From: Antennarius striatus
Taxonomy: Eukaryota; Chordata; Actinopteri; Lophiiformes; Antennariidae
Assembly: GCF_040054535.1 (NCBI RefSeq)
Contig: NC_090785.1
Location: forward strand, 10,082,501-10,146,500
DNA length: 64,000 nucleotides
Direction of reading: 5' to 3'
Both the position numbers and the translations under genes were made by a program. The stretch's first letter is position 1. The number at the start of each line of letters is the position of its first letter. Below are positions 2,381-58,428 of this stretch, piece by piece. The notes under the pieces are model-generated. The model ran no database searches. It was not told the DNA's origin and saw only the letters and a program-made list of their open reading frames with translations.

Positions 2381-5300
2381 TCAGTTATGGTCCATGTCAT
2401 CAACAATGGGGGTGTTGTAGCTCTGAAACAGAGGCTGCATGAAGAGGCCCAGCGTGCCAACCACACACACCAGCACGAAGATCCACAAGAAGAGACGATC
2501 AATCACCATGGCCACGTATTTCCAGTCTTCAATGATCTGCAGAGAAACAATAACATTAAAGTTTTCTGTATTTACTCCGTTTTTATATGAAATTATTGAG
2601 CAGCAACACTAATGAAACATAGTTTTGACACGAGGACCAAAAGGCTATCAAGTGGCCCTTCTAGCTGGTGCTAACATGCTCATGTTTACAGTGACACTTC
2701 TGATAGCGTAACACACAGTGTCAGTGTTGCTAAGTAGAAAAACGAGTTTGATATGTATTTGATGATAGAAAATGATTAGTTAAACTAACCCTGTGACCTA
2801 CTGATACAATGCTGTACATAATTAAACTTGTGACAAATGCACATGCCAATTCACCAACCCCTTCATCATCATCTTCACTCTTCATCTTATCGGCAATGTA
2901 GCGGACTCCATCAACTGCATCCTCCACGTCAATGTTACATTTGAGCGTCATTCTCCTTCTGAATTCCGTGTTCTGGGAAAAGTCACTGATCTTCCACCCG
3001 AAACGTTTGGCCGAATCCTCGTTCACAAAGAAGGATGAGGACGAATCGGCCATTCCCAGACCTCCAGTCCCCCCATCCAGTCCACACAGCTTCTGGTCAG
3101 AAAAAGATCGCTGCTGGTGTTTTTTCCTGAATTTTTCACGGATGTTGGATCTACCTGGTCTCCGCATGAAGAGGTAAGATGGGAGCTGGTGCAAGAAAAC
3201 ACGCTTGACCCAAGGAGGCATGGTGTGTGTGCTGGGGGACCGATGATGAACATTGAGGACGCAAACACTGGTGACGATGGAGAAGGTGACCAGCACCATT
3301 GTAAACATCAGGTACTTCCCAATCAGAGGCACTGCTAAAGATGTGGGTGGCACAATCTTTGAGATAAGGAGTAAAAACACAGTCAGGGCCAGGAGGACAG
3401 ATATACACAGAGTCATCTTCTCACCACAGTCTGATGGGAGGTAGAACACCAGAATAGCCAGCGATGTGATTAGAATGCAGGGAATGATCAGGTTGATGGT
3501 GTAGAACAGAGGTTTTCTTTTGATGATGAAGTCATAAGTAATATCCAGGTACCTGATGTCATTAGGATCTACATTCTTGCGGCCAGGCAGTGACACAATG
3601 TCCCACTCACCGCTGGGTTTGAAGTCGTCACGCGAGGCAAAATCACTAAGGAGGATGAGATCAATTTCAGTGTGGTCGTAGGTCCACGAGCGAAACTTAA
3701 GGGTGCAGTTCTGCTGGTCAAAAGGAAAATCACGAACTTCAATTTTGCAGGCAGACTTGTAGATAGCTGGGGGAAGCCAGTTCACCTCTCCATTGTTGGA
3801 GACGACTACGTTACAGTAGAAGGAAACTTCATATGTTCCATCAGCACTGGGAGAACGGGAAGGTAGGAGCAAAAGATGGATGAAAAAGAAAGTCGAAGCA
3901 TTTAATGGGAAGTCACATAACAATGCAAAGATGAAACACATGAGTATTAATATATATTATTAAGTATAACACCAAAAGGATGGGGGGTGGTGGAGGAAGT
4001 GGCTGCTTGTCATTGGTTGAAGTCGATTAAATCATTTGTCCATGAGCCAACATGCGTAGCTGACAAACAACGGAATCAGTGCTGGAGACAAAAATCATCA
4101 TCTGCTCTGATCTCATGTGACTTGATGAGAAATAACACGACACACGCAGCACCTTTGTGTGATGAAATTTAAAACCCATGTTCTCAGGGGAGGCTTAGCT
4201 CGGAACACGTACCAGCTGAGGCATTAACTGTCCCCACCTTGCCTCGAATCTGCTGAAACTGACTCTTTTTTTTTTTTTTTTCATCTGAACAAGCCTATAA
4301 GCGATGAATTATAAATTAGTGGCCTATCAATTATAAAGCAAGTCAAGAATCCTACATCACAGTTGGCCTTTAATGCTTCAGGTCTGCTTTGAATATGAGG
4401 ACTGATTAAAAATGCAGAGACCCCACCTGCTCACTGTGGCCTGGTCAAAGACCTCGACCTGAAGTCATGAAGCAGTGCAGATCGTCTCGTCGTTTAGCCT
4501 CCGAAGACATTTTGCTCTTGTGGTCTTAAGCTGAACAGCAATTTTTGTTGGTAAGGATTTAATGACTACCAGTCTATTAAAAACATAACTTAACACTGTG
4601 GAATAAATGTCCATACACCTTAAGCCTGTCCTACTACTACAGGTAAGTAAGTTCATTTATACTCAACATTGATGAGGTTAATTCAGGACTAATCACCAAA
4701 ATGTTGATGAAATATCTGTTCTTGAGTTTCATATGACAAATTATAGAAACTCAAATTCCTGTTTTGTTTTTTGGACATTGAAGGCTTGTTGTTAAGTTTG
4801 ATTCTTTATCTGCTGATAAACCGAACCATGAGTAAAAGCAAAATATTTTTTTAAAAAAACCCTCCTGATATGATCTGCTGATTAAATTGCTTTCTCAGAT
4901 ATCTTGCTCACATCAACTTGGTCAATTATTATGACAAGTTGAGCTTACTCTCATAATATATGCTGTTTAAATATGACTGGTGTATATGAACAGTTTCTAT
5001 CAAAGTACCAATGCAAATTTTGATTATCTCAATATGTCTAAAATATTTAAGTATTTAGTTTGTATTCTCAAAGGACATTAATCCCTAAAAGTCTATGATC
5101 TTTGTAAAAGATTAGGCAATGTTTATGAAATATTTTTTCTGTAGGAGATCTAAAACAAGAGAACAGAGAAGCTAAGAGAACATTTTAAATAATATGGTGT
5201 TTTTAATTACAATTTTTCATTGGTTTGTATGTGTTCCTCTTTTGATATCTTATTTTACAAACAAATACACATACTTGTTGTAGAGAACGATGTCTGGCAG

Positions 5301-38067: not shown

Positions 38068-41000
38068 CTATCGTCTTCGATGTCGCACTCTTTGTTCAAG
38101 GGAAGACATATAACTAGAGGGATACCAATCATGCTTTATTCCCCTTCTTCTTTTAAATCTCTCTGTTTCTCTGCTTTTCCTGGTCCTTCTTCCACCCTCC
38201 TCATTTCCCATCTTCATCTTTGGTGAGACTGTACACTGACCATGGAGTGGGGACCTGAAGGGGACTGCAGTGTCCACTTCTTCTTCAAGGTTCCCTCTGG
38301 ATCTAACCATTAGTCCACTTTCCCGTCTGGCTTGAGCTTCTCTCCTTAGTCTCTTCACCTCCCGTCTTTCTCTGCGCTTCTCTGGCCACGTCTTCCTCCT
38401 GTCAATACGACTGCAGGTTTCCTGCTTTGTCCTGCTCCTGCCTTGTCCTGTGTGACTCTCCTCACCACTCCCTTGTCTGGGTTCAGGGTACCTCTGATCA
38501 TTCAGGGATCCTGAACTCATAACCTCTGAGAACAAAGTAGTGACAATATTCCTTAAAAATAAGAACCTTGGTTGGTGGACAATAAGTTGAATTAAACACA
38601 CATGATATCTGTTTCACAAACATGATGAATTGTGTTTTCTTTTAACTGCCTGGAAAATACATTTTTAAAGTGTCTTCAAAAATATTTGAGTTTTGTGAAC
38701 TACGAAGATCTTAATTGAGAATCTGGGTAATTTATTACCCATTTTATATTAAACTGATAACTTGTTTGTTATCAGTTTAATATTCTCGAAACTGATAACA
38801 AACAAGTTATCAGTTTCAAGACTATTAAACAGGCTTTTGTCTTCATTAGTAGGCATGTATGATGAAACACTGAGTGAATTATCTATGCTGGTTAATTCAC
38901 AAGAGGAAATATTAACAAAAATGTGATATATTTAACTGACTACTTTTTTGCAACAAAGTGAGATTATCTACATAACATCCTTGAACGGTAATAACATTTT
39001 GTTTTGACATATTGCAAATGGACATTAATGTGTTGATAGCAAAAAGCTCTGAAATGCGTGGGACAAGACTAAAAAAGGCAGATAAACTTAGACCCAACAA
39101 CTGAACGGTTTCCACTGTCACTACGAAAGACTTGACCGTTGTCTATGGAACTTTATCCCGTTACCCCATCAACAAGAAACTGGAGAGAGCATCTACTTCA
39201 TGTTACAATGAAAGCAAACCATGCAAAAAGACCTTTGGATCAGTAGCTTAAATTTTCCACAAATTTTCTTGTTTAAAAAAAAAAAATTACAGGTACACAA
39301 ATTACAATTTATGTAAATGTTTGTTTTATTGTGTACTGAGTGTAATAGTAATGTATATCCTATAATTTTCTCCATGTTATATCACCTTTGGCTGTTTTCT
39401 GTATCCTGCATCCTTCATTTTGGAGGAGGTCTTCATTGGTGTCGTAGTGGGAAACATATGGAAGTGAAGGAGAAGTCCCACCAATCATCCTCTTTTTAGT
39501 GCACTCCTGGTACCAACAGAGAGAAAGAGGCATTAATGTGGGGGCACAGAAAGAGAAAACATGATGGATGGAAAAAGATGATGGAGAACGGTGGTGTAAC
39601 AAAACCCAGGATATTGCTACATCTTGCAAGATCATTGTGTCAAAAAGTTCTAGTGTCTATAATGTGTATTCCTGGATAGTAAATTCCCATTTTTAAATTT
39701 TCTGTTGGGGGCCCTGGTAATATTTGTTAATAAAAGTGGACTGAAGACACAGGCTTTTGCTTCCAGGTCTATTGTTTTTTAAGAGTCCTTCTGTATTGAA
39801 TGTTATGTCAGAATGATTGATATTTAGGGAGCATTAACTGTGGTCTCTCTCTATGAAGGACAAGACATGTTTACTCTGAGGGGCTGGTGGAGTGTGCAAC
39901 CAGATGTTTGATCTGAATGAAAATTTGTCAGTGACAGAACAGTTTATTAAATATTCAGAAATGCTTAAGGTCAAATTTATTTACCTAGAGCAGTGTGCTA
40001 CTGCAGAAGTCAACTCAATGAATTTTTCATCGAGTGTTCTTATAGACCTAACAATCCCTGAAGAGCAACAACTTGCCAGCATCAACAAGGTAAAAAACAC
40101 ACTTTTAACTGGGTGGCTGCTTGAAACCATAAATAAAGTGTTTCTGAGTCATTTCTGCCTCTCAAGAGCCAAATATTATCAGCTTACGATGTTTGTCCCT
40201 CTGATGATGTAACACAAAGAGATTCACAGACCATAATAACACAACGGTCATGCTCGGAATTGGAAGTTTAAATGCTTGAAATGCTAATGGCGTCACATGT
40301 TTTAGGCGCGTTTTTACTTTAATTTACATTTTTCCAATTGTGTCATTGAATACTAACATTAGTTAGTATTCAATGACACAATTGTTTAAAAGTAATCAAA
40401 TATGTGATTTAACACTAAAATTAAGCCTGAGATTTATACAGATTTTAAATATTCTCCTTTTAGGAGGTGATCAGTAAGAAAGCAGTGACATTTTAACAAT
40501 TGGTTCTAACCAATATATTCATACATTTTTAACCGGAAAACACAATGATATTACATTATCCTTGTAATAGTAGCCTCTGAGCTTCAAAACTTGAGCTGGA
40601 AGTCAGATTTAAATGGTTGCCATGCAAATATGGCAACAATGAGCTGGTATCTCCTCCAGGGTGTACCCTGCTTTTACCCATAACTTGAAAGGCAGATAAG
40701 AGAGAATTATAATCATCTCATCTATGAGAAAATTAATGGATGAATTCGAAATTTCAATAGAGAATTATGGACCAACTCATCACTCATCAAGTCAGTCAGT
40801 AAGTCACACAAAAGCATGCAACCAGTGCAGAGGGAGACATGAGAAACAGATTGAAGAATAAGACAAAAGAAGAATAAGAGATTAAGGGGAATGGCAAACG
40901 TAAGAAGGAATGAAGAGATACTAAAAGAGAAGGATTTCTTTCATTAGACACTTACATAGCCGTAATGACCCCTCTCAGAGCAGTTGAAACAGTGAGGGAG

Positions 41001-44000
41001 GGATGTATGTTTGAGTGAGTGGACAGGATGATGTCTGGTTGGAACCCCTAACCTTATCTGGAAAAAAATGTTTAAATGTAAAAAGGAATATAGGTGATGT
41101 CATAACACAAATCCATGAATACAAACTTTATCATTTCACCAAACGCCCACACGCATACCTACAGACAATCTGTGACCAATTCACATACGTTGTATGTTTT
41201 TAGAGGTGGGAGGAAGCCGGAGGACCCAGAGAGAACCCACGCAGACAAGGGGAAAACATGCAAACTCCGCACATCAAAACCAGAACCTTTTTGCTATGAG
41301 GCACACAACCCACTACACCCCCACGGCACTATTCTATTTAACCCAATTAAATTTGGTTTTATTTGAAAAGTTAGGTTTTGTTCTGAATGTTTTGATGTGC
41401 GATTGCAATCGTCTTGTCTAAAAGATGGATAGATGGATGGATGGATGTTTAGAAAGATTGGTGAATTCTGCTTAGTATGGGCATTAGATCAACTTCAGCT
41501 CACCGTAAAGTGGTATTGTCTCCAAGTATCAGGGCAGGTCTAAGGGAAAAAGGAGAAAATTACTGTTTACTAGCATAGCCAACGTATTGCCTGACCATAG
41601 TGAAGATGAGAAACTGTTTGTAAAGATAAAACATATCTAAAAAGAGGTCCACTTATGCCTGAGGTGAAGGAGTGTCAACAATGCCAAACCCTCAACTTTC
41701 CTTCAACATGGCAACACACTTAGGAGCAATCACATGGGCCAGCCTCAGGGGAAAGATCTGTAACTCACATCAGAGAGGTGCCCTGCCATACCACAGCGCT
41801 GGCAGTGCTGGTTCCACATCGGGGGCCTGTCACAACGTGTGAAGCCATGTGATGGAAGGCCACAGCTGGAGCAGGGGCGGCCAGGACAGTCCCTCTGGAT
41901 GTGGCCCTGGGTTCCACAAAGGATGCAGATGGGACATTTCTGTTGACACAGAGACAACATGTTTCTGCTTACAGAAAAACTGAGCGTTAAAAAGTCTTCA
42001 ATCAACCCGGAACTACAATGAAACATTTTTTAATTTATGGTGGCCTGTGAAGGATAGAAACATTAAAGATAAGGTAAAATAGTCAGTTCAAACAAGATTC
42101 AACATAATACGTTATAAATGAACGGTATTAAATACCATCTGTTTTACAACTTCAAAGCATAATGTCTTACAAAAGCACAGTAATATATTTACTGTTTAAG
42201 TAGTTGAAAATAAAATAGTTTGGAAACACTGAAAGATGAAGAGAAGAGTGAGCAGAGAAGAAAAAAAGAAAAGAAAAAAAAGAAAAGAAAACAGAACAGA
42301 TTTGTATCTTAAGTATCTTAGACTTAAGTATCTTAAGTATCTTAGACCAAGCAAGTTTATTTTTAGAACTCTAATCTATGAGTTACATTTATTTATCAAA
42401 AATCTTAAAGGAAACATGGGCGTGTTCATTTACCTTCTGGTAGTAGCAGCTTTTGGCAAGGTGCCCTGTCTTGTTGCAGATGTTACAAATCAAAGCAAGG
42501 CCAAAATAGCGGCTGGGGAGACACCAATTATCACCAGACTAGATAAAAAGAGAACAAAAACATGACAGACACAGTTCAAAAGTCTGTTTTTGGTGTGTGC
42601 TGACAAATTAGAACACAGACAATGAATGCTTATTGATAACTATCCTCAGTACACAAAACAGTTTGTTTTAATATTTTTTTCAAAAATATCATTGAGAAAT
42701 ATTTTAAGTGTAACACATTTTCTATATATGAATAAAATTCAAAAAAATGGAACAAAATTTGTTTTAAATGTTTGACTATATAAAAAAAATGTAAATAAAA
42801 TAAAATAAAATGAAAATACAGTCCATCTCAACACATACTTCAGGTAAAACTACAGCAGAAGGCTGATACCTGAAAATAAATGCATATTATGTTACCTTGT
42901 CTTTCTCTGATACAAGCCAGGCATCCTTTGCTTTTCCATCTATAAAACAGAGAATGAGAAACAAAAAACATTGAGTTGTGTAGACACTAATGAAGTATAT
43001 TGTCTAATAAAAGCCAATGCATTCTCAAGCCTGAAGCTTCTCACAATAACCAACTTTGCTGAAACAAGTGCTCCTGTAACCAGTTGGCATTTCATGAATA
43101 TTCCTATGTACAAACGTACACTTTCCAAAAAGTTTACACATTCAAAAAAAGTTGATTATGAGAGGACTGCAAGGAAGTTAAGACACCAAAAAAATACTAT
43201 TATCTAGAATACAGTGGTGGGCGGTCAGGGCCAGCAAGGCCTTCTCTGCTGGTCTAACATAAAAAGAAATCATGATATTTATGATAACAGTTAATTATAT
43301 TTTAATGCATTTCCTTTAAATACATATATTCAAATATGTGTATAAATTTATAATTCTACATTTGGATGTATGACATAGACCAAAAGTGGGTCAGTGTTCT
43401 ATTTTAGGTTAGAGAGGTTTTATCCAATCAGAATTCAGCTAGCTTGTGTTGCCAGGTTGAATGAAATCTGCCCAGGGCCTTCAGAATCTAGAGTGCAGGT
43501 TTCCCTGCACTGTGAGTGAACGGGAACATATAGTTAATAGACAGATGAGATAGCCAATCAGATCACGAGTTGGTGAGGCTAAGGCCTTCTAGCTGGCCTC
43601 ACGTTCACCTGAGATGTACGTGTCGTGTGATTGGATACTCACTCTGAGAAGGCGGCCCTATGCAGACGCACATTTGAAGAGAAGCTCTATTGAGAGGACG
43701 GTCCGATCCCTGAAGGAGCTAACTTGTTCTAGCTAACCTGTTCTAGCTAACGGAGAGTTTTTGAGGACAGAAAGAAGAATGGATTTTGTGTTTAAATAAG
43801 CCGTTTAAACAGCTGTTTCGGTGATTACAAGAATTTTATTTATATGATTTTTAATATTTAATGTTTTTGTAATTCAATTTAATTTATATCAAATCAATTG
43901 TAACGAAATAAAATGACAAATAAACTAAAAAAAAAATCTTGCTCTTTTGCGATGCGTGTAAATAATGTGGCACACTTACTCAGCTGTGTGATTGTGGTGG

Positions 44001-45726
44001 AAATACACAAAGAGGCTTGTTTCCCTACTGGAAAATAGCTCATTTTATACATTGACTAGTTGACTACATCGGTGGCAGTGGTGGGAGCAGCTTATAGTAT
44101 TATAGTTTGTATTTATTCACGTTTGACTAAATAGAACATAACTGAAGGCCTAGGTGTGAAATGCACAGCCTGCCACTGCTAGAATGTACTGTATATATTC
44201 AGTATTGCTAGAAGAAAACTAAAAACATCCGATCTGACGCCTTTATTGTTCATAAGCTAAAAAGAGCTTATTTATTTTGACATACCAGCATTCTGTGAAG
44301 CGTCCTCTTGCAAGATTATTGTACATTGTACTGTACGCTACTGTGCTGGTGGCCCTTATAACATCACCATAGCACACACTCCAACGCATTGATGGATTGA
44401 TTGATTTATTGATAGACTGATTGATTACAAATAATTAATGCAGATTAACTTGAATTATTTGTGTATTATTTGTAACAATTATATGAATATTATTATAATA
44501 CATATTCTTAATTGTGACTTCATTTGTTAAGTACTAGTTGACTAAATATTTTAAAAACGTCAGCTTGATATTTGATGTTCATCAAATCTGCTGTATGTTA
44601 ACCATGTATTAGCAACATCTTTACAAAACATGCGTGGTGGCAGTTAGAAGGTTGGCAGTGCTTTTCCTGATGAAATAACCAACCAAGCAACAAGTAACCT
44701 AGGAGCAAAGATCCAAGGATTGATTACATGTCAAAAAAGATCAAGAAATAAGAAATAACGAGGAATAAGAAAGATATAATAATACAGTAAAGCTAATAAG
44801 ATGGAATGATTTTGCAGGGCCGCGACTTGGTGAAAGTTTGTGAATTGTCAGGAGAAGCATTGTACACTCACTAAAATATCTCTGCATAACTTTATGTAAA
44901 AGTTAAATGTGGAGAAAAAAATCTATCCGCGCACAACTTTATACATATCGTTAAAACAATGTCCATCTATTGCTATCAATTACTTTAACCCTCATGCAGT
45001 TACTGGGTATGATGAAGTGATCAGTTGATGTATTGGTGTTTTCTGTTTCTCTCCAGGCAGAATTATCCAAAAACTACTAATCATTCTTCTAATAAAGTTG
45101 AATTTTCACTGACAGAAATATTAATAATAAATTATATTCTGATGTTGGACAGGGTTAGATGGAGGCTATTTATTTGCTGTGGCGACCGCTGAAGGGAAAA
45201 GCTGAATGGAAAAGAAGTATTCTGATGTTGACTCATTGGATAAAAAAGCTGGTTCAACTTTAGAGTGCACTACATGTGAGCAGAGCAGAAATTACATCGT
45301 GATCTATACAAAATATGTATGCCAAGCTTAATTTAGGTACCGAATAGAATGAATGAGATCATTAGTCTCACCTTCTTCTCCAGAATCCTCCTCATCGCTG
45401 TTCCAGTAGCTCAAGTTGAGCTGGATGTTCGAGTCTCCCAACTGCGCATCTCTTCCGAGGATCATCCACTCCTCGATGTCCTGGTCCTCCTCCTCCTCCT
45501 CTGAGTCTACACTGGGGATGGTTCCGCTCGTCTTGGCGTTTCCAGAGGGAAACGCCAAGACGAGCGGAGGAGAACTTTCTCTTCTCAACCGTGAAAACTG
45601 GTAGTCCTGTTGACTGAACTTAACCTCTCCGTCATCTTCTGAACTACCGGAGTCCTCGAAAAAGAAGAGCTCGTTTTTACCAACACCCTCATCACAGATG
45701 TCTTCATTGTCTTTCATATAGTCCAT
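38068..45726 (-). CDS. zcchc7: Zinc finger CCHC domain-containing protein 7 (Air-type TRAMP subunit)
   Basis: An RNA-binding zinc-knuckle protein. ZCCHC7 is the vertebrate relative of yeast Air1/Air2 and works with MTR4 and the PAPD5/7 polymerase in nucleolar RNA surveillance. Eight exons on the minus strand: 45372-45726, 42896-42939, 42434-42538, 41769-41939, 41504-41539, 40956-41057, 39386-39506 and 38068-38525. They total 1392 nt (463 residues). An acidic N-terminus (DSEEEEEDQDIEEWMILG) precedes five CCHC knuckles at about 151-164, 173-186, 191-204, 214-227 and 260-273. Three of these are CNICNKTGHLAKSC, CILCGTQGHIQRDC and CFNCSERGHYGYEC. The WRQYH motif after knuckle 4 is typical of the family. 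The last exon is Arg/Lys-rich. The acceptor of exon 6 was set at the strong pyrimidine tract because the nearer AG breaks the frame. Exon 1 contains a perfect inverted repeat. Confidence 0.92.
38751..38816. repeat. Nested perfect palindrome in zcchc7 intron 7
   Basis: The 28-bp segment 38751-38778 is the exact reverse complement of 38789-38816, separated by 10 bp. Each arm is itself a palindrome with 11-bp stems (AAACTGATAAC and GTTATCAGTTT). Confidence 0.9.
40335..40384. repeat. Perfect 23-bp inverted repeat in zcchc7 intron 6
   Basis: Arms 40335-40357 and 40362-40384 are exact reverse complements around the 4-nt loop ATTA. Confidence 0.92.
41202..41330 (-). mobile_element. SINE 5' part, inverted, in zcchc7 intron 5
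   Basis: Reverse-complement match to the head and body of the 18990-19341 SINE, including GGGAGGAAGCCGGAGGACCC and AACATGCAAACTCCGCAC. The 3' part is absent or diverged. Confidence 0.65.
43212..44178. mobile_element. Non-autonomous hAT-like transposon in zcchc7 intron 1
   Basis: The left end is CAGTGGTGGGC and the right end GCCTGCCACTG, imperfect inverted termini. They are flanked by an 8-bp target duplication, CTAGAATA (43204-43211) and CTAGAATG (44179-44186), matching at 7 of 8 positions. An 8-bp duplication and CAGTGG ends are typical of hAT elements. The 967-bp body has no transposase frame. Confidence 0.75.
45165..45215. repeat. Interspersed-repeat tail fragment
   Basis: TGCTGTGGCGACCGCTGAAG followed by GGGAAAAGCTGAATGG resembles a tail sequence seen in many fish interspersed repeats. 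It is too short to assign to a family. Confidence 0.35.
45523..45568. repeat. Perfect 21-bp inverted repeat inside zcchc7 exon 1
   Basis: Arms 45523-45543 and 45548-45568 are exact reverse complements with a 4-nt loop, GC-rich, and lie fully within the coding sequence (region PPLVLAFPSGNAKTSG). Confidence 0.93.
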
Positions 45727-46928
45727 AGCATAAACTGAACAGCACCAACCAACGATCGCTCACTGCATTGCTATCAAAAAAAGTGGCGATTGATCATTTA
45801 TCACATTTTTTTATCAATAGCAGACACCTCAGAAACATTCGTTTTTGTTGGTGAGGTATTCATAAAACGTATCATTACGAGGTTTATGGGCAAACATGTG
45901 ACACGTGGGTAGGTGGGTTACCACCAGGCTAACCGGCGCTATGCTAACTCATAATCGCGCTGTTGTAGCAGACTGGTAAATTAGATAAATTACTAAACCA
46001 TGTGGAATTGATCTTAAAAACCAACCCCTGCTCTTACAGGTTTCACTTCACCTCATGAGGTCACGCTGCCTGTATTATGTTTCCCTTCCATACATGTGAA
46101 AGGGCTGTCAACTTTGCTATTTGTACTGTATTACTAGTCACTCTCATTCCTGTTAACAAGTTTGTAAAGCGTTACCCCCAGTTTCCGGCGCTGACATGTT
46201 GGTCAACCAAAACTGATTCCGGAGTTTTAAAACTACCTCAGTGAGTACTATCGAAGGTGCAGGTAGGTATCGGTTATGACGGCCCACATTTTTATAAGCA
46301 TTTGTACTGTGTTAGTTGTAGACGGTCACTAAATGGTTCCTACGTTTAAAGGATATTGGAAATTATTTATATTGTCCGCAGCTGGGAGATAGTGGCAAGC
46401 AAAGGGCAAAGGATTTCATGTAATATATTATTGTTTGTTTTTGTTGATTTTTTTCAAAACAAATAAACAATATATATCTCCGCAGTAACAGATAGATGTT
46501 AAATTGTTTTGAATGAAATATCAGTCAGAGACTGATCAAAATGGTGTTATTTGGAGGGAGGTGGTGTTACAGTTTTTTTGTGCGTGTTGTTGTTTGGTTG
46601 GTTGCTTTGCTTTGGTTCTGTGGAACTATTGGATTCGGATAGTCCATTTCTAAGCCTACAATTTTCTAAAACTTCCCAAAATCCCTCTTTGATCACCTGA
46701 ACTAGAGTAATATCGCGCGTTGAAGCGCGTGCACGCGTGGTTGTCATCCAATGGCAGGATCGCGGCGCTGTCCCCCGCCCAGGTGCTGCAGGCAGGTTGC
46801 TGTTCCACAAAAACATGCGAGACGATATCGTACAGTATCCATTTGCAAACTTTTTTTGAGCGTTTATCGTCTGACCAAGAATGAGATATTTGTTCGGAGA
46901 ATCCAGCTGCCAATCACCCCGTTCAGTC
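45727..46928. promoter_or_regulatory. Bidirectional promoter region of zcchc7 and the pax5-like gene
   Basis: The 1.2 kb between the divergent start codons of zcchc7 and the pax5-like gene. It contains an E-box-like ACACGTGGG near 45900 and CpG-bearing sequence near 46690-46800. In human, PAX5 and ZCCHC7 are also head-to-head, so shared regulation is plausible. No start site can be placed from sequence alone. Confidence 0.5.
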
Positions 46929-48975
46929 ATGATGGACCTACGCTTTGCACAGGTGCCGCTCACAGTTACGCACAGTAAGTAAAGATGTGTCTCACTGGAT
47001 TAAAGTTGGGATATATCAGAGCGATTTGAATGATTTTTAAATGCGAGTCTGTCAGTTCTGAGGCTAAAATACAATTGCATGGTGGTTACTTTTTATCGGT
47101 GTTTCTTTGCTGCGCTCCGGCGCACAGGGCACGGTGGAGTGAACCAGCTCGGCGGGGTGTTCGTGAACGGGCGCCCGTTACCGGACGTGGTCAGACGGAC
47201 CATCGTGGAGCTCTCGCAGCAGGGCGTTCGTCCCTGTGACATCTCCCGCCGGATGCGCGTGAGTCACGGCTGTGTCAGCAAAATACTGACCAGGTAAATA
47301 TAATGTCATTTACTTTCATTTTTATTCAGTAAAACATCTATGGTTGTTTTAATAGATATGATTTTGGAGTAGATGTAGAACTAAATAATCTATAAGCCTT
47401 TTACAATATACTGTAATCAGTTTATGTTCACACACTGGCTTCTTAAAATGTTCTTATGTAATCTGGAACTGTAAAACTAGTTTCACTTAAATGCATGAAT
47501 GTATTTTGCCTACATTATTTTCATGTATTATAGGCTAACAGTTAAATATGTATATATCTGTATAAATTCTAGTTGTATTTTAACTAATAGGCCTGTGTGC
47601 ACCATTTACTCACAGCAGTATTGTGGGATCAAATCCAGACCTGGGGTCTTTTCAATCTTTGTGTGGTGTTGTGTTCTTCCTGTGTCTGCATGGTGTTCAG
47701 GCTAATGCCCACAGAACAAGACAACCTTGTGACTTAATAACCCATGGGTGTAAATATCAATGAGTTGATTGTTTGTCTCAAGTAAAGTTAGCTCTGTGAT
47801 GAACTGGGGTCACCTCATGGCATACCTCAAATTATAGAGAACTGATGGATAGTTAGGATTATGCCTGTTCATCCCAGCATTTATTTTTCCGAAATTACTT
47901 TATTGGTGATAAAAATTTAATATAAAGGCCATGTGCTTTTTTTGCTTTTTGAATCTATATTTGCATTTTATTTATTCCAACAAATATGTATGGAAATATG
48001 TTGTTAACCCTCTTCACAACTATGAACGTTGTGAATTCAGGTTCAATGAAACAGGAAGCATCAGACCAGGAGTGATTGGAGGTTCAAAGCCAAAAGTTGC
48101 AACTCCCAGAGTCGTGCAAACGATCCTCCATCTGAAGCGCACCAATCCCAATATATTTGCTTGGGAGATCCGAGACAGGCTGCTGCAGGAGAGAGTGTGT
48201 GACAAAGACAGTGTGCCCAGTGTCAGCTCCATCAACAGGTATCAATCTCGTGTGTGAGTATGCTTTCAAAATGCAGTCTGCTTCCAATACACAAGATAAG
48301 TAACATAAATAACTGAAGTTAAGATACTGTACAGTAAATGATGGTTGCATGATCCAAGAGTGACGTCACACTTTCTGCATGCATGTTTAAATCTGTGATT
48401 CCCTGTTCTTTATTTTGATAGCTGGCGGGCTGTACTGCATGTTAGTGTATGTGAAGGTGCATGTTAGTGTGTGTGAGTTCCTCCCCACCCTGTTTCAACT
48501 TGGCAGCCTGGTAAGAAATTTTATTGTACATAGCCAAACCACACACTAGAATATCATGATAAAATAGGCTGTGCAGTGAAAACCTTTTGGTACAGTGGAT
48601 GGTTTGTTTTTTACCAATTTTTAAGGAACACATAATAGTGGCCGCAAAGAGACAGCCTTTCCTGTTTTAATACAGTGCACTAAAATACTCCTGAAAACAT
48701 CTAATGCCAGTTAATGCATATAACTGTATTACAAGTAGTTCCTTGTGATTTTGCAGAATCATCAGAAACAAAGTCCAGTCTGAGTCTTTTGAAGCAGGTA
48801 AGTTTATCTGTTCCATGTATTCTTTCACTAACTGCATCTCTCTTATGTTTACTATCATTAATGTCTGTCCCCTGTAGCATCGTCTTCTAGGGGAACTGTT
48901 TATTCCTCTGAGTCCAAGTTCTACATCAGTGGAATTCTAGGAATCAGGAAATGCAACAGCAAGGAAGGTAAAAGA

Positions 48976-49066
<91 letters not shown>

Positions 49067-49265
49067 TAGATTTATTTCTACTTGATTTTCAGCTGCTGAT
49101 GTGTCATTTTAAGCTTCAGCACTTTCTTACTGTTATAAAACAAGAGACTTTTATCTATTAGGAATTGTTTCAAAAACAAATAGTAAGACCTAACGCTTGA
49201 TTAAACGTGTCGTGTGAATGGATGCTTTTTCAGAGCAGACACAGAGATTCCAGGGTGCTCTTTGA
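46929..49265 (+). CDS. pax5: Short Pax2/5/8-class protein (pax5-like, paired domain and octapeptide only)
   Basis: A predicted DNA-binding transcription factor. Six exons: 46929-46974, 47128-47293, 48041-48238, 48757-48797, 48878-48967 and 49234-49265, totalling 573 nt (190 residues). The 46, 166 and 198-nt exons equal those of mammalian PAX5 as I recall them, and all phases fit. [19 protein letters not shown] and [13 protein letters not shown] are intact. Elsewhere the paired domain diverges: [28 protein letters not shown] and the helix segment [16 protein letters not shown]. Exon 4 is 24 nt shorter than usual but in phase. The octapeptide region reads [10 protein letters not shown] stop follows 17 codons later, and no homeodomain remnant or C-terminal activation exon was found before stap1. 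An AATAAA lies at 49322. The head-to-head zcchc7 neighbour supports the PAX5 locus. It may be a degenerate pax5 duplicate rather than the main pax5; the end exon is the least certain part. Confidence 0.75.
48979..49063. repeat. (TG)n microsatellite just after pax5-like exon 5
   Basis: About 85 bp of TG beginning 12 nt inside the intron, downstream of the donor at 48968. Confidence 0.95.
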
Positions 49266-51891
49266 GGTAAACCAAACAGCTGACTAATGAGTGAAGCCGG
49301 TGGTCCTGCCTTCATATTACTTTAATAAAACAACATCCACAGCAGGAGATCCACCTCCCCGCCCCAGGGTTCTGTCCTCTCAGTCAGCAGGCTCTCCCCT
49401 CCCCTCCCCTCTACCTCTCATTACAGCCCCATTTCACCTCCAACCCTCCATCACTGAACCCATTAGGTTAGGAGGCTGCGTAGATAAATATGCACATTTA
49501 CAGCTAGGCATACATACATGCACATTTTGTCATCCTGATAATTAGGACAAAGTTATGATTGTAGTCGGGGGGGCAGTAGAGGTACGCCTGAACCTGGACA
49601 GAAGCTGTTTTGTTTTCTAGGAGAAGAACTCCCCTGCTACCAAAACCAGACACAGTCCTGGAGGCGGTCTGACCCATGTATCACTTCTTTTTCCAGTCTT
49701 ACATTTTACCCCTCCCTGCCTGGTACTCATAATTCAAACTTCTTAGGTCAGTAAGTGACAAAATGTTGACTAATCTCCAATGTGAATTCAGCTTTAATAT
49801 GTTTATCAAAGGGTTGCTCCTCTTCTTTTTAGGACCACCATGTCATTACTGCTGAACTGCGCTGCAAAATACCTCAGAGGAAAGCATAGCATCCCCTTGG
49901 TACCAAGACCAGGACATTTCCAAGCCTTTTTTTAACCAAACGTGTTGTCATTACAAATGACAGAAACATAAATTATGATTACAAGCATGTTGGAATAAAA
50001 TTGAGTCGAAATACAGCTTTTACTGTCATATTTTCAATATATAACACATACCTTTGTTGTACATTTGTCACAGGCTAATAGCGCATCATCAGTCCAACAT
50101 ATTATCCCCCATCCCTGTCACCCCTGCGGCCATTTTCTGCTCAGTCGGTGGTGAAAGGGGAGCACCATTATGGGCCACATGATAGAGAGCAGTGGCTGTT
50201 TTCTCTCCTTAGCGCCCGTCTCCCCAGCCTCGCCTACAGCATGAGGGATTAAAGGAGGAGATAGGTGACGCCAGAGGGACCAGCAGGTGGTATCACTCCA
50301 AAGGAAGCATGTGGAGAACATACATATTGTGGGAAATGTTTTTATAGTGCTTGTTTACCATATTCTACATTTGTATTCCTACTTTAAGGGAGAATTCAAA
50401 CATCCTAAATGGAGCAGAGTCATCATTATCATCAATAATAAATGAAGGGGGAATATATGAATGTGTTTATTCCATCTCATCCATATATCTATTCAAAGAT
50501 CATGAGTCAAAAACATTTAGTTTTGTCAAGAATCTTTGTATATACATCGAGCATGAAGCTATGTTTATTATCATGTGGGGGGGCTCTTTTCTTTGTTTTG
50601 GTTCCATTCCCATGGTGATAAGTTAGACCCTTTCTGCCAATGGGTAGTTTTGTTTCGGGAAGGTTCTGAAATACTTTTCAATACTTCGAAAGAAACATTC
50701 CACAACCTGAAGAATGAAGTGGAGCTTTTTGCTATTTCGGAATATTTTCTTTGTTTCTGCAGTTACCTTTTGAAGTATAATTTTCTGTAATTGTTTGTAC
50801 TCACAAATGCCAGGGAGGCAACTTCACTGATTTGAAAATTTCATTCTTATTGTTTTATTATTTCAACTTTATACAGACATAAAATTAACAGCTATTCCTG
50901 TCATGGTTTGGTGTGGCAGTTATCATGATGAGGCTTTTTAAGCCTAGCTCAATGAGAGCTAGGTGCTGGGTCGTTTCTCTTGTTTGGTTCCTGAAAGTCT
51001 GTTATGTTTCTTGCCTGTCTGGAGAATTCTTTCAGTTTTGAATAAATCATGGATGGAAGATTCGCTTTTGGTGTCCTGCACTTGGGTCCATATCCCGCCT
51101 CTCGTGACAATTCCAGTGAAAGAGTGGAAGCTTATTGACTCTGAATGAAGTCTTAAAATGTTAAGTTGGTTTTGCTTTGATTTGACTGAACTTCTATCTT
51201 CTATTAGTGAAGCACCCATGTTTAATAAGGCTCTTATATCTCACACATGTGTACAGTATGTGAATAAATTTAGCTTGGACTTTGAATTGTTTGCTTGTTC
51301 CTTTAGGCCCTGTTGTTTATACAAGGCCTTGGCCTGTAAAAACAATCGGTCCCAATAAAAAATGGATCCATTAACTCTGTAACTTCTTTTTCCATGAGAC
51401 AGGGGGTTTTCTTCTGCCTTTCTCTAATCATTTGTGAACCTACTAAAAGTGTGCATGTGCGCAGACACAAACACGATCATTGCGTTTTGTTTGTAATATA
51501 AAACGATATATTATCTGCGGGTTCGAAGAATTGATTGGTTTTTATTTACATATTGCAGTTGGAAAATATTTGTAATTCCTTCTTCATAAACCGTTGCAGC
51601 ATTTTTTCATTCACAGAGTCCAAATATCACTAAGATTGGTGGTGAAAGGGGGCGGCTTATCAGGTCAGGTTTATAGGCCAGCAATAAGATTTATCAAAGG
51701 TAAATTTATTGCTGCTTTGAGAGCTGGAGGGACAAAATGAAGTAGCGAGACTGTCTCATATGACAACTGTTCCTTGTGTACTAGAGAGTTCACCTCTAGA
51801 TGAAAATTATACAATTAAAATAAAGGTGGACTGAACCAACACTGAAACAAAACAGACAAGAAGACATTTAGTTTTGACTGAGGAGCTGAAG
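49266..51891. other. Interval between the pax5-like gene and stap1
   Basis: About 2.6 kb. Contains a possible polyadenylation signal (AATAAA at 49322), a CCCCT-repeat patch near 49394 and AT-rich sequence. I looked for the remaining Pax5 exons (homeodomain remnant, activation and inhibitory regions) and saw none in any frame. Confidence 0.6.
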
Positions 51892-54800
51892 ATGTCACAC
51901 CCCAGAGTGGTCCACAGGAGGAGGGAGACTATCACGGCTCTGCCGCTCTACTACTCTGGACACCTGCTGAAAAAGCTCCGAAAAGAGAAGGTGGGGACAA
52001 ATTTGGAAAAGAAACTAACTGTAAATGTTTATTTAAGATAAATGGAGCAAAACAGATGTAATGAATAGTGATATACAATGTTCTAAATGAGTTTATGATA
52101 GCACTAAATTTGGAAAGGTGAATGCTTTATTAAAAGAAGACATTCGAAATGACTGTTGTGATTTCCAGGATTTTAATAAGTACCACGCAGAGCTCAGGGG
52201 AGCCACGCTGTTTCTGTATCAGGATGAAACCCAGTACACAGTAAGCAAACAGCTTTGTTTAATCCTAAAACTTAAGGTTTTCAGGCAACAGTAAAATGTG
52301 GATTTCCAGTTTGAATTGAAGTGTTTTCACAGAATGATTTAGATGTCTGTGTAGGATCTCAGTTATCCAAGTCATGGTTATATATTGTATAGAATAAAGA
52401 AACTTTCTTAAAGTCCAGTGGATTGATTTTAACAGCTTTGGACAATGATTTAAATGTATAGAAAAACAAGCGCAACGGAGTTGAAGGGCTGAAAGAAACT
52501 ATTAGTTGTCAGGATGGACTCCTTTAATAGGCTATGCTTCATGTACTGATGAGGTGATGTGTGATTATTCTCTTGTTTTAGACGTTTTTGTCTTGTTTGT
52601 TGTCTTGTTTTAGTACACAGAGAAGCTGGACCTGAAGGCATTAAAGTCCATGGTGTTAGACTCTCCATATCAGAAGAAGGCACCAACTGTCTTCACTCTC
52701 ACACTGAACACAGAGGAGGTGCAGCTGAAGGTGCGTTAAAATGAAACATCTTTACATGGAGATATTTGAGATATTGTTGTAGAGGGCCAAAGTAGAGATT
52801 ATTACGTTTTCAGACAGACTAGGGTAAAGACGTGGATTATGGGTGACTTTTTCACTTTCTTTGCCAATATCATTAATAGTATACGGGTATAATGACAATT
52901 TGATTCAACTCAAATCTGAGTCATCACCACCATGCTGATATCATAGTGTGTGCTAAGCCTTGGGTGCAATAATACAACATTTACCAGTCATAAATGCAGT
53001 GGTCAGGGTGTGTTTTCTAACCCTGCTCTAGTGTATTTATTAGTATTATGTAGGTGAAACATCTGCTGTTCGTGTAACTACAGATGGACAATCCTGACAC
53101 TGGAGAGGTGTGGAGGTGTTACATCCTGACTGTCATGAAAGTAAGCAAGCAGACACACATATTAAGTACAAAAACTTTAAGACACATTTCTGATGAGTTG
53201 GCATGGGGGTCCATCTTATTGTGAGTGTGTGACAAGAAAAACAAGCAATAAGAACAACTTTATAAGCCAACAAATGGGGAAATTATTTTACACACATATA
53301 GACATGAAGTACAACCACAACATACATACAAAGTGTCTGTACTGTTCACATGGAGCTGGAGTTCTGGTTGATTTTGTACGTTTATTTCCTTGTGTTCTAT
53401 ATTATTATTATTTCAGTGGAGATATTTTGTGTTCGTATCATAAGCCTTGTTTCACCGTGTGGATTATCACCAGTTCCAAACACATTTTATCAATAACATT
53501 ATCTCTTAGAGGATGACAGAGGAAAAAATGTACGACAATTTCAAAGGTCACGAGATTGTGTGAAATGACTGGCATTGAAAACACATCATGTGTAAAGGAG
53601 GTTTGGTTCTAACCTGCACTTCCTTGTAGAGAGAGCTTCCCAGCAAACTGCAGCTGCTGCCTGGTCAGGTGCTGCAGCTACAGGATGTTCTGGCTCAGGA
53701 GAAGAGAAGAATCCTCAAGATTTGTCCACCCCTCCCACTTCGACCACCCTTCTTAGACTCAGCCTCCTCCTCCCAACCACCACCCAAAGATGAGAATGAG
53801 AGCACCCCCGAGGTTCCCGCGTAAGTTTGATGCCTCGACTCTGACAAACTGAAGCACTTCCTTCTTATTTCCAGTGTCTTTCTCATCATCATCATCAGCT
53901 GATGAAAACACGTGTGTACGTTTCATCCCTTGCCCTTATAAACCACATTTCTACACATTTTTCCTGCAGGTGTTTCTTTAATGTGACCCGTCAGGAGGCG
54001 GAGAGAATGTTGGAGGCCAACCCCGGCTATGGAGGCATGATTCTCCGTCCATCCACTCTGGCCAATAACTACGCCCTGACTCTCAGACAAATGTTGCCCA
54101 GGTCTGATGATAATGTATCTCATAGACTTTTATTATTATTGTGTATACCATTCTGAGTCATTTGACATGCATGCATGTTTTCCACTACTAGGCAATAGTT
54201 TGGTATGCTCATTGGATTTAAAGATGCATTTATCCCCTTTGAGGTCCTTTTACACAGAAGGACCAAGTATCCATTCAACGTGCATGCACATTTCCTTTTT
54301 GAGTAAAATCTGTGTGCATTTATTCCTTCCTCGTCATTGGGTCTATAGCTTTGAGGAAAGACACACATAATTACGAGTATTCAAGCACATTGTGTGTTAT
54401 GAAAGCCTAGGAAATAAAGATTAGAAATGTTTGCATTTATTTGTTTTAATATGGGCTACAGAAAACTTTACACGTAACTCGCGTTTTTATAAATATGTAA
54501 GACATTAATTCAAAATAGAAATGTATATTATTAGTGTATACAGAAATGCTTAGAACAGGAAAAAGCTGACATTTTAGTCACCGAGGTGACTCCTTTTAAT
54601 CAAGGAGAGATTATATAAATGACTTTAAAGTCCAATATGTAAATAATGCTGTATTTGTTTATATGTACTTTTGATTCTTCAGTCCTGACACAACCAAATT
54701 CTGAGAAGTCATAAATTTAAGTGAGAGATCTGATTTCATTCTCATTTTAAGCCTGAGTACAAAATAAGTCCACTTACAGTTTTGTTTTGTTTTTTTGACA

Positions 54801-55215: not shown

Positions 55216-56988
55216 CGTGTGTACGTGTGTGTGTTGTCAAATGTTGTACACTCCGTATATCACATCAGAGAAATGTATTTATGAACAATGTTTGTTTCTT
55301 TGTGACTGATTAAATAAAGGTGATAATTAGGGTCATAAGGTTGTTCATATGGAATACAATATTTTCCTTCAAACACAAACAACCCAAGCATAAACTTAGT
55401 GTTCTGAGAAACAGGATTAACAGGAGGAGGTTATATTTTGTTGAATCCACTCAAAAACATATAATAAACAAGGCAGTCAGAGACTGCAACATCCTGCGAC
55501 ACCGCTGAATTCTAAATTTTACCCTGACGTACATTGACCTAATTTTCCAAAAGTGAAGGTCACCATCACATTTTTGTGCCTCTGGCTTCCTTAAAATGTT
55601 GCTTTTTGTTTTGCGATTATATCTCATCACTGCTTCACGGGATGTAACAAACAATAAATAAAGATATAAATTTGTTTTTGTGTATCGAAGGTCCAGCCAG
55701 CGGAAAATAAATTCAAATTCTTCTGTCTTGTGTTTCAGTGGACCTACCATGAGAAACTACAGAGTGACTGCCACAAAATCAGGCTTCATCATCGAACTGG
55801 ACACAGCAGTAAGGCTTGCTTCATAAAACATATGATGTGTGCACAAATGTTTGGAGGAATCAAATCAAAATCCTTCCAAGTATTCACTAAAATAGAACTC
55901 CATCCATGTGATCTGAAAGTAAAATCTGTAATTCTTGCCTATGTCCTGCAAAGCAGCATGGAGATATAGAAATTTTACCTGTTGGTGCGGCACAGTGGCG
56001 CAGTGGGTAGCGCTGTCGCTGCACAGCAAGGCGGTTCAAGTCCCGCTCTGTGCGGAGTTTGCATGTTCTTCCCGTGTCTGCGTGGGTTCTCTTCAGGTTC
56101 TCCGGCTTCCTCCCAACTCCAAAGAGATGCATGTCAGGTTAATTGGCCAGTCCCAAATTGACCCTAGGAATGAGTGTGTGTGTGCGTGTTTGTGTGTCTG
56201 TGTATAGCTCCATAGTGCACTGGCGTCATGCCCGGAGTTTCCCCACCTTACGCCCTAAGACAAACGGATGAAATGGGTTGAGAAAATGAATGAATAAATG
56301 AATGAATACTAGTTGGTCAAAATCAGGTCAATCACCAGTGTTGTACACATTGTTCGATGACCACAGAAGGAAGAACTCTAAACATGTACATCTTTTGAAT
56401 CGTCGTTTGTTTTACTTATTTCCATATGTCCCCTCCTCTGTAGGTGATTGTTCCATCCTTGAATGATGTACTTAAATACTTCACTGAGAAGACGGAGTAC
56501 CGCCTTCATCCCTACACATTGTCTCACCCCTACGACACCAGCATCAGTGAGTGCAGCACCACAGACACAGATCACCTCAGGTTCAAGTACAGTCTCAAGT
56601 CTTTATGTGTGTTCAATAGATGTGTCACCTGCAACAAACTACATCAGCATCCTCTCATCTACGCCCAAAAAAGTACCAAAGGTACAAGTGGCACCTATGC
56701 CCCCGTCAAATGACAAAGATGAGATGCCTGCTCAAAAAGAGCCTGTTCACGGCGTCTATGTGGTTCCTGATGATTCTGACCATTACGACCATACAGTGGA
56801 GATGGGTGAGAGTGAGCCTGATGCTTCCAGAGCTGTTTTGGTTTTGTACATTAGAGAGTAAAGTCAAACTGAGTGCATATTTTTTGTGTACTGTAGCTCG
56901 GCTGGATGGAGAGCTTCAGACGGTTATAAAACTCCAGAGGGCCAGCATCTGCAAACAATCTGACAAGAAGGAAGTCCCCAACCCATAA
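51892..56988 (+). CDS. stap1: Signal-transducing adaptor protein 1 (PH-SH2 adaptor)
   Basis: A cytoplasmic adaptor. STAP1/BRDG1 is a docking protein in B-cell-receptor and cytokine signalling in mammals. Ten exons: 51892-51990, 52169-52240, 52614-52730, 53084-53140, 53630-53820, 53970-54101, 55739-55808, 56444-56546, 56620-56805 and 56897-56988, totalling 1119 nt (372 residues). The PH domain spans about 15-130, starting at ITALPLYYSGHLLKK and including ELRGATLFLY. LLPGQVLQLQDVLAQEKRRI links it to the SH2 domain at about 180-272. The SH2 phosphate-binding arginine is R205 in MILRPS. The features ITALPLY, ELRGxTLF and MILRP favour STAP1 over STAP2. Residues 281-372 form a tail with ATNYISI and VYVVPDDSDHYDH tyrosine motifs. 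The protein is longer than human STAP1 (about 295). The exon 6 donor (AG/GTCTGA) is weak but is the one that keeps the frame. The exon 9 acceptor was chosen on phase. Confidence 0.85.
55440..55700. repeat. Interspersed repeat shared with nAChR intron 1
   Basis: Carries AGGCAGTCAGAGACTGCAAC and CATCC near 55472, followed by CCCTGAC and an AAGGTCACCATCACATTTT-like stretch. The same order of motifs occurs near 7652-7970. Lies in stap1 intron 6. Family not recognised. Confidence 0.45.
55984..56309 (+). mobile_element. tRNA-derived fish SINE, near full length
   Basis: The clearest copy of the family. It has an A box TGGCGCAGTGGGTAGCGC, a B box GGTTCAAGTCC, and the body motifs GTTTGCATGTTCTTCC and GGTTCTCCGGCTTCCTCCCA. 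It ends in (AATG)n. Lies in stap1 intron 7 in sense orientation. Confidence 0.8.
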
Positions 56989-58057: not shown

Positions 58058-58244
58058 GGTGAAGTGTTTGCTTTGTTCCCTCCACCTGATGTACAGTAAC
58101 AACACGTCATCAATGATGAGGCATTACCGATCCAGACGTGAGAATGAAGCCGATGGTGCTGCTGTGATGACGTCTCGGAATCGGAACCGTTGTGTGGCTG
58201 CAGTACAGCCACCCCGCCAAAGAGGGCGCCCACGTTCCCAATGA
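58058..58244 (+). pseudogene. BED-type zinc finger fragment
   Basis: After a plausible acceptor (TTTAATTTACAG) the frame reads VKCLLCSLHLMYSNNTSSMM, then RHYRSRRENE. This is the CxxC, NNTSSMxRH signature of a BED finger of the hAT transposase/ZBED class. The second zinc histidine expected after HYRSR appears to be arginine. The frame ends at 58242-58244 and there is no upstream BED tryptophan block or downstream hAT catalytic region. It is most likely a decayed transposon-derived or zbed fragment. It could instead be one exon of an unrecognised gene. It lies between the convergent stap1 and ankrd13d genes. Confidence 0.45.
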
Positions 58245-58428
58245 ATGGGGCGCCGAGTAATGGAAGAAGCCGGTTCGAAGCCCCATGGGGCGCCATTCAG
58301 ACATCACTACCAAGAATCACTCATTTTATTTCAAATGATTTATTGCATGCATAATTAAGCATTAAGCAGTAAAATGTTAAAATGTAGTCAGTAAAGGAAA
58401 TAAGCAGAAGTCAGGATGAACACAATTC

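Follow-up and report, generated by a model that had tools for sequence, protein, structure and literature searches.

Proteins of the Pax2/5/8 group activate transcription through a C-terminal domain. They bind Groucho-family corepressors via the octapeptide (PMC4488758, PMC10931086), and in mammals PAX5 drives B-cell identity (PMC9456430, PMC9640836). Shortened forms have been described: PAX5 splice isoforms without exons 6-9 keep the paired domain and have lost most of the C-terminal exons (PMC9456430), while PAX3f, a dominant-negative isoform with most of its activation domain gone, lowers the transcription driven by PAX3a in occupying its sites (PMC10931086). Pax1 and Pax9 (group I) have a paired domain and an octapeptide and no homeodomain (PMC4488758).

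In fishes, a 2013 survey of eight ray-finned genomes reported extra copies for seven of nine PAX genes, with PAX5 and PAX8 excepted (PMC3759438), and within Pax2/5/8 another source names teleost duplicates for pax2 only (PMC2532684). In databases the eel gene LOC118227625 is called 'paired box protein Pax-5-like' (PMC9780358), which may or may not mark a second pax5 copy. None of the literature matches listed, which came from open-access papers, describes a shortened pax5 or a further copy of it in a fish; other annotations of such a gene may well exist.

The gene described here lies in the Antennarius striatus genome, in a window of 64,000 nucleotides (C10:10082501-10146500), the term window being used for the whole stretch analyzed. 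Like the PAX5 isoforms, it keeps the paired domain and has most of the C-terminal exons gone; those isoforms are spliced from a full gene (PMC9456430), whereas in the window the short form is hard-coded in a gene of its own, the paired domain of which has diverged. PAX3f resembles the mode of action proposed below, that is, site occupancy without activation, and differs in belonging to another PAX group and in being an isoform rather than a separate gene (PMC10931086). Pax1 and Pax9 are comparable in having no homeodomain next to their paired domain and octapeptide (PMC4488758), but unlike the window copy they keep a C-terminal activation domain (PMC10931086). With canonical PAX5, represented here by a pax5 gene on contig C8, the window copy shares the places of the paired-domain introns, the octapeptide exon and a head-to-head zcchc7, whereas it has no partial homeodomain, KRKR stretch or Pax2_C domain and differs at 21 of 126 paired-domain positions.

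The window copy has six exons, re-derived from the sequence, which form an open frame of 573 nt (190 codons) with GT-AG borders at all introns (Table 1), thus bearing out the exon sizes of 46/166/198 nt, the splice sites and the unbroken frame of a preliminary description of this DNA. Those sizes had been said to fit PAX5; the likely first exon of C8 pax5 has 43 coding nt against 46. Exon 4 measures 41 nt where C8 pax5 has 65 nt, so that eight codons are gone from the spacer, as had been noticed before, and exon 5 has 90 nt against 126 nt, 12 codons fewer. The octapeptide reads FYISGILG; its core ISGILG is intact and the glycine is kept, while residues 1-2 are changed (FY for YS), and the KRKR stretch that lies C-terminal of the octapeptide in C8 pax5 is absent. 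The frame does stop early, 18 codons past the octapeptide and not 17 as first counted, and in the last coding exon there is no recognizable homeodomain remnant or counterpart. The paired domain PF00292 is complete in the predicted product (221.3 bits, profile 2-125 of 125), and the best PDB match is human Pax5, 1k78 (E 1.3e-67). From the first to the last exon found, the window copy spans 2.3 kb versus about 46.6 kb for C8 pax5. A (GT)42 run occupies 48980-49063, from 12 nt past the exon 5 donor, and a similar GT run is seen in the corresponding C8 pax5 intron (c8 58228-58313).

Table 1. Features of the window pax5 copy and of its head-to-head neighbor (positions within the window).
Feature	Position	Strand	Remarks
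zcchc7 copy, head-to-head neighbor	38068..45759	-	outer limits of recognized exons, no full gene model
CpG-rich promoter/exon 1-2 region	46601..47400	.	CpG observed/expected in 400-bp windows
Exon 1, window pax5 copy	46929..46974	+	46 nt; 15 codons + 1 nt; donor GTAAGT
Exon 2, N-terminal (PAI) half of paired domain	47128..47293	+	166 nt
Exon 3, linker and C-terminal (RED) half of paired domain	48041..48238	+	198 nt
Exon 4, paired domain end (IIRNKVQ) and shortened spacer	48757..48797	+	41 nt
Exon 5, octapeptide exon; without the KRKR stretch of C8 pax5	48878..48967	+	90 nt
Last coding exon (predicted), 10 residues then TGA	49234..49265	+	stop 49263-49265
AATAAA, possible poly(A) signal, 59 nt past stop	49324..49329	+	

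At the 5' end, CpG observed/expected values of 1.21 (start 47001) and 1.15 (start 46801) rank first and second of 636 400-bp intervals over the 64 kb, the mean of which is 0.40. Part of this peak is exon 2 coding sequence; the mostly non-coding interval 46601-47000 still ranks 22nd. This CpG richness speaks for an unmethylated 5' end of the window copy.

The Pfam paired-domain profile gave 30 matches in the whole genome (548 Mb, 42 contigs), of which the 26 strong ones fall in 14 loci; four weak matches (28.7-30.2 bits, above the family cut-off) were left out of the locus count. Among the 14 loci, five show the exon pattern of Pax2/5/8: C8, C10 (that of the window), C11, C15 and C21. The names pax1/9, 3/7 and 4/6, as well as pax2 and pax8 for C21, C11 and C15, were read from exon patterns and residues. 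The search for a second, full-length pax5 that the preliminary description had proposed thus found one on C8, next to two pax2-like genes and one pax8-like gene elsewhere. Exons 2-10 of C8 pax5 were located in order over about 39 kb by tblastn with a human PAX5 query. Upstream of them lies its likely exon 1, MEIHCKHDPFAAMH, with 43 coding nt, picked out of five candidates by its resemblance to Pax2/5 first exons; it ends in CACA before GTAAG, and exon 1 of the window copy ends in CACA before GTAAGT.

Over 126 paired-domain positions the window protein is identical to C8 pax5 at 105, to the pax2-like proteins at 102 and 101, and to the pax8-like protein at 96, while the other four genes match one another at 115-123 positions; Pax1 and Pax9 are presumably less similar to it by sequence. 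In a five-sequence tree the grouping of the window copy with C8 pax5 was the best one, both for protein and for codons/nucleotides. The AU test on protein excluded all three alternative placements (p = 0.007 each), KH and SH tests on protein left them standing (p = 0.066), and the AU test on nucleotides excluded one of the three (p = 0.15, 0.34 and 0.027; bootstrap 85). A larger protein tree with human sequences gave the pair 88.9 SH-aLRT and an ultrafast bootstrap of 54, with human PAX5 falling outside it, the conserved domain resolving little. The Pax2/5/8 tree suggested earlier, here with sequences of this genome and of human, therefore unites the window copy and C8 pax5 by protein AU and more weakly by KH/SH and nucleotides. 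Residues common to both are SIRPG, ERVCD and the DS in KDSVPS/NDSVPS.

Head-to-head with the window copy lies a zcchc7 copy, which we named from pieces of human ZCCHC7. Its zinc-knuckle exon occurs at two genomic places, C10 and C8, each head-to-head with a pax5, an arrangement that we take to exist also for human PAX5-ZCCHC7; the last (C-terminal) zcchc7 exon of the window matched itself only. The knuckle exon at two pax5 loci indicates that the window contains one half of a duplicated pax5-zcchc7 block, in agreement with the earlier proposal of a paralogue at the zcchc7-linked PAX5 locus, and the presence of two such blocks in one genome (C8 and C10) is as expected of a teleost-duplication ohnolog. 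In a fish, a block duplication is most simply the teleost genome duplication, and a fish genome-duplication copy, as had been suggested, fits the finding of the knuckle exon at these two places only. One RNF38-like exon was found on C10 only, and a kinase exon read as melk at C8 had no match among the C10 reading frames; melk and RNF38 presumably flank human PAX5, and their distribution here is what reciprocal loss would leave.

When the open reading frames of C10 and C8 were compared with each other, two paired-domain exons and apparent repeats were recovered; zcchc7 was missed, the C8 knuckle exon lying outside the stretch compared. At the DNA level the two loci resembled each other in exons 2 and 3 alone, apart from microsatellites and dispersed repeats, and no conserved non-coding element common to both was seen. 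A tandem or recent copy was considered and rejected, with no other pax nearby and with silent sites saturated despite a protein identity of 105/126. The window gene is very probably a duplicate of pax5: by descent it is a Pax5, while by domain content it lacks two features of group II PAX proteins.

As for the neighboring gene, the first zinc knuckle agrees with human ZCCHC7 at 16 of 18 residues in the C8 copy and at 9 of 14 in the window copy, the next knuckles being about equal (47% and 44%). The window zcchc7 is thus, at least partly, more divergent than its C8 counterpart, so that fast evolution may be a trait of both genes in the C10 block. Within the matched C8 zcchc7 stretch lies a single in-frame TAG, perhaps intronic.

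Exons 6-10 of C8 pax5 were used as baits against the window plus 50 kb of C10, with the reversed sequence as control. The best match had E 0.024 and the others E 0.16 or worse, the reversed control reaching 0.32; the former, at 28.5k on the minus strand, falls inside the RNF38-like gene, looks unlike Pax and was discarded as a hidden late exon. No convincing later pax5 exon was found in the 65 kb downstream of the window copy, which extends the earlier remark that none is seen before stap1; nor did the window with its 50 kb extension contain a convincing match to exon 6, the partial homeodomain. The same baits recovered pax8 exons 8, 9 and 10 with E values of 4e-4 or lower; pax8 exons 6-7 were not recovered at E 0.01, which makes this a strong control for the C-terminal exons and a weaker one for the homeodomain part. 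Genome-wide, Pax2_C (PF12403) matches 8 times, in pairs on C8, C11, C15 and C21 and nowhere on C10, which sets five Pax2/5/8 paired domains against four recognizable activation domains. These searches show the predicted window gene to be without an activation domain.

It is highly improbable that the missing exons exist after all, in an assembly gap or elsewhere. Assemblies can misplace exons, and the 150 kb of C8 do contain two runs of N, 7,500 in all, one between pax5 exons 5 and 6 and the other between 6 and 7; but the 114 kb of C10 searched contain no N, every Pax2_C match lies beside one of the other four genes, and the bait peptides do find pax8 exons 8-10, though not 6-7. Placement of these exons elsewhere, one of the alternatives first offered, was dropped on the Pax2_C distribution, with the pax8 exons as positive control. 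We also regard as quite unlikely a working gene that is not a repressor, having lineage-specific 3' exons that escape recognition or acting through protein partners on the paired domain. A last coding exon that resembles nothing recognizable, and a 3' end predicted from sequence only, would suit such a gene, but that next exon has a good acceptor and an in-frame stop, AATAAA follows 59 nt on, and a stap1-like reading frame starts about 2.6 kb downstream.

Of 114 paired-domain sites that are invariant among the other four Pax2/5/8 genes, 19 are changed in the window protein, and the stretches quoted earlier as changed at normally invariant sites are all present; each of the other genes, compared with the remaining three, has fewer private changes (C8 2, C15 7, C21 1 and C11 0). 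The 19 changes are clustered, with 12 neighboring pairs within 3 residues (permutation P = 0.003), although by the longest unchanged gap there is no significant clustering (P = 0.37). Most of them lie in the first helix, the linker start and the fourth helix, whereas the beta-hairpin, the SHGCVSKIL and SVSSIN helices and most of the linker, as seen post hoc, are spared, the helix names being those of known paired-domain structures. Residue 42 of the paired domain is one of three that set Pax5 versus Pax6 DNA specificity; it is R in the window protein instead of Q, with 44 and 47 unchanged, so the site preference may be altered. In the numbering of human PAX5, V26, R38 and P80 are kept and positions 39, 40 and 57 are changed, V26 being presumably a leukaemia-linked position as well. 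P80R, R38H and G183S are leukaemia-linked changes of PAX5 (PMC9640836).

The dN/dS analysis that had been proposed was run on the paired domain, as a codon model over the five Pax2/5/8 genes and 126 aligned codons. Omega was 0.052 on the window branch versus 0.0077 elsewhere, an about seven-fold relaxed constraint. With lnL values of -1247.71 (free), -1252.39 (window omega = 1) and -1254.03 (one omega), both a single shared omega (2 delta lnL = 12.6) and neutrality on the window branch (2 delta lnL = 9.4) were rejected, omega = 1 on that branch fitting better than one omega for all; these figures are rough, synonymous sites being saturated and branch lengths near or at their upper bound. As modeled, they show purifying selection averaged over the window branch, and since the average is taken over a whole saturated branch a recent loss of function would escape the test.

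Decay was the other alternative first raised: a gene long functional that then lost its 3' exons and is drifting to a pseudogene, its frame still unhit. The loss of exons 6-10 and the shortness of exons 4 and 5 would agree with it, as would the 19 private replacements versus 2, 0, 1 and 7, the higher omega and the want of any conserved non-coding match to the C8 locus. Against it, the 573 nt have no stop or frameshift, every intron is GT-AG, omega = 1 is rejected (roughly, given the saturation), the private changes are clustered and spare most core DNA-contact elements, and the 5' end is CpG-rich against the window mean. The open frame and the rejection of omega = 1 weaken this explanation and leave it mainly the form of a recent decay, which we consider unlikely. 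The low omega, the clustering, the kept residues and the CpG-rich 5' end favor a gene maintained by selection, and the window copy is probably a functional coding gene.

We lean towards reading the window gene as a retained, fast-evolving pax5 ohnolog without activation domain, whose product would be a repressor or competitor of Pax2/5/8. In such a history pax5 and its neighbor zcchc7 would have been duplicated, as a block or with the whole genome, and the C8 sister would have stayed canonical; the window copy would have kept exons 1-5, with paired domain and octapeptide, and shed exons 6-10, with the partial homeodomain and the C-terminal activation/inhibitory part. It would be transcribed, and its product would bind Pax2/5/8-type sites, recruit Groucho/TLE through the ISGILG core and be unable to activate, so that by occupying Pax sites it would repress, or merely compete with, full-length Pax2/5/8. 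A protein reduced to DNA binding and Groucho recruitment, as envisaged in the preliminary description, fits this anatomy and the lack of a fifth Pax2_C locus. To the repressor/competitor mechanism taken by itself we would give about an even chance; with KRKR absent and octapeptide residues 1-2 changed, the protein may enter the nucleus or bind Groucho less well. More tentatively, this second pax5 might have been kept as a hard-wired antagonist, devoid of the activation domain and with a retuned paired domain (42 Q to R), for Pax2/5/8 targets in B cells, brain or other tissue.

If a second pax5 survives here, the picture given in the 2013 survey (PMC3759438) would need correction for one lineage at least. 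If the reading is true, activation-domain loss would be a route for keeping a duplicated master regulator, a built-in counterpart of the splice isoforms for which other vertebrates use a single gene. The role of PAX5 as a driver of mammalian B-cell identity means that a natural antagonist could be put to a direct test in fish immunity.

Other features were observed in the window. A stap1-like gene is located at 51835-54150 (+), about 2.6 kb past the stop of the window pax5 copy, and beyond it an ANKRD13-like gene at about 57-65.7 kb (-) runs past the window end; both names are our assumption from a reading of the open reading frames. At 2730-3956 (-) there is an exon of a nicotinic-receptor-like channel subunit (Pfam Neur_chan LBD and membrane domains). 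Finally, a dispersed repeat at 55987-56191, tRNA-derived SINE-like, is found also at the C8 locus with about 75% identity.
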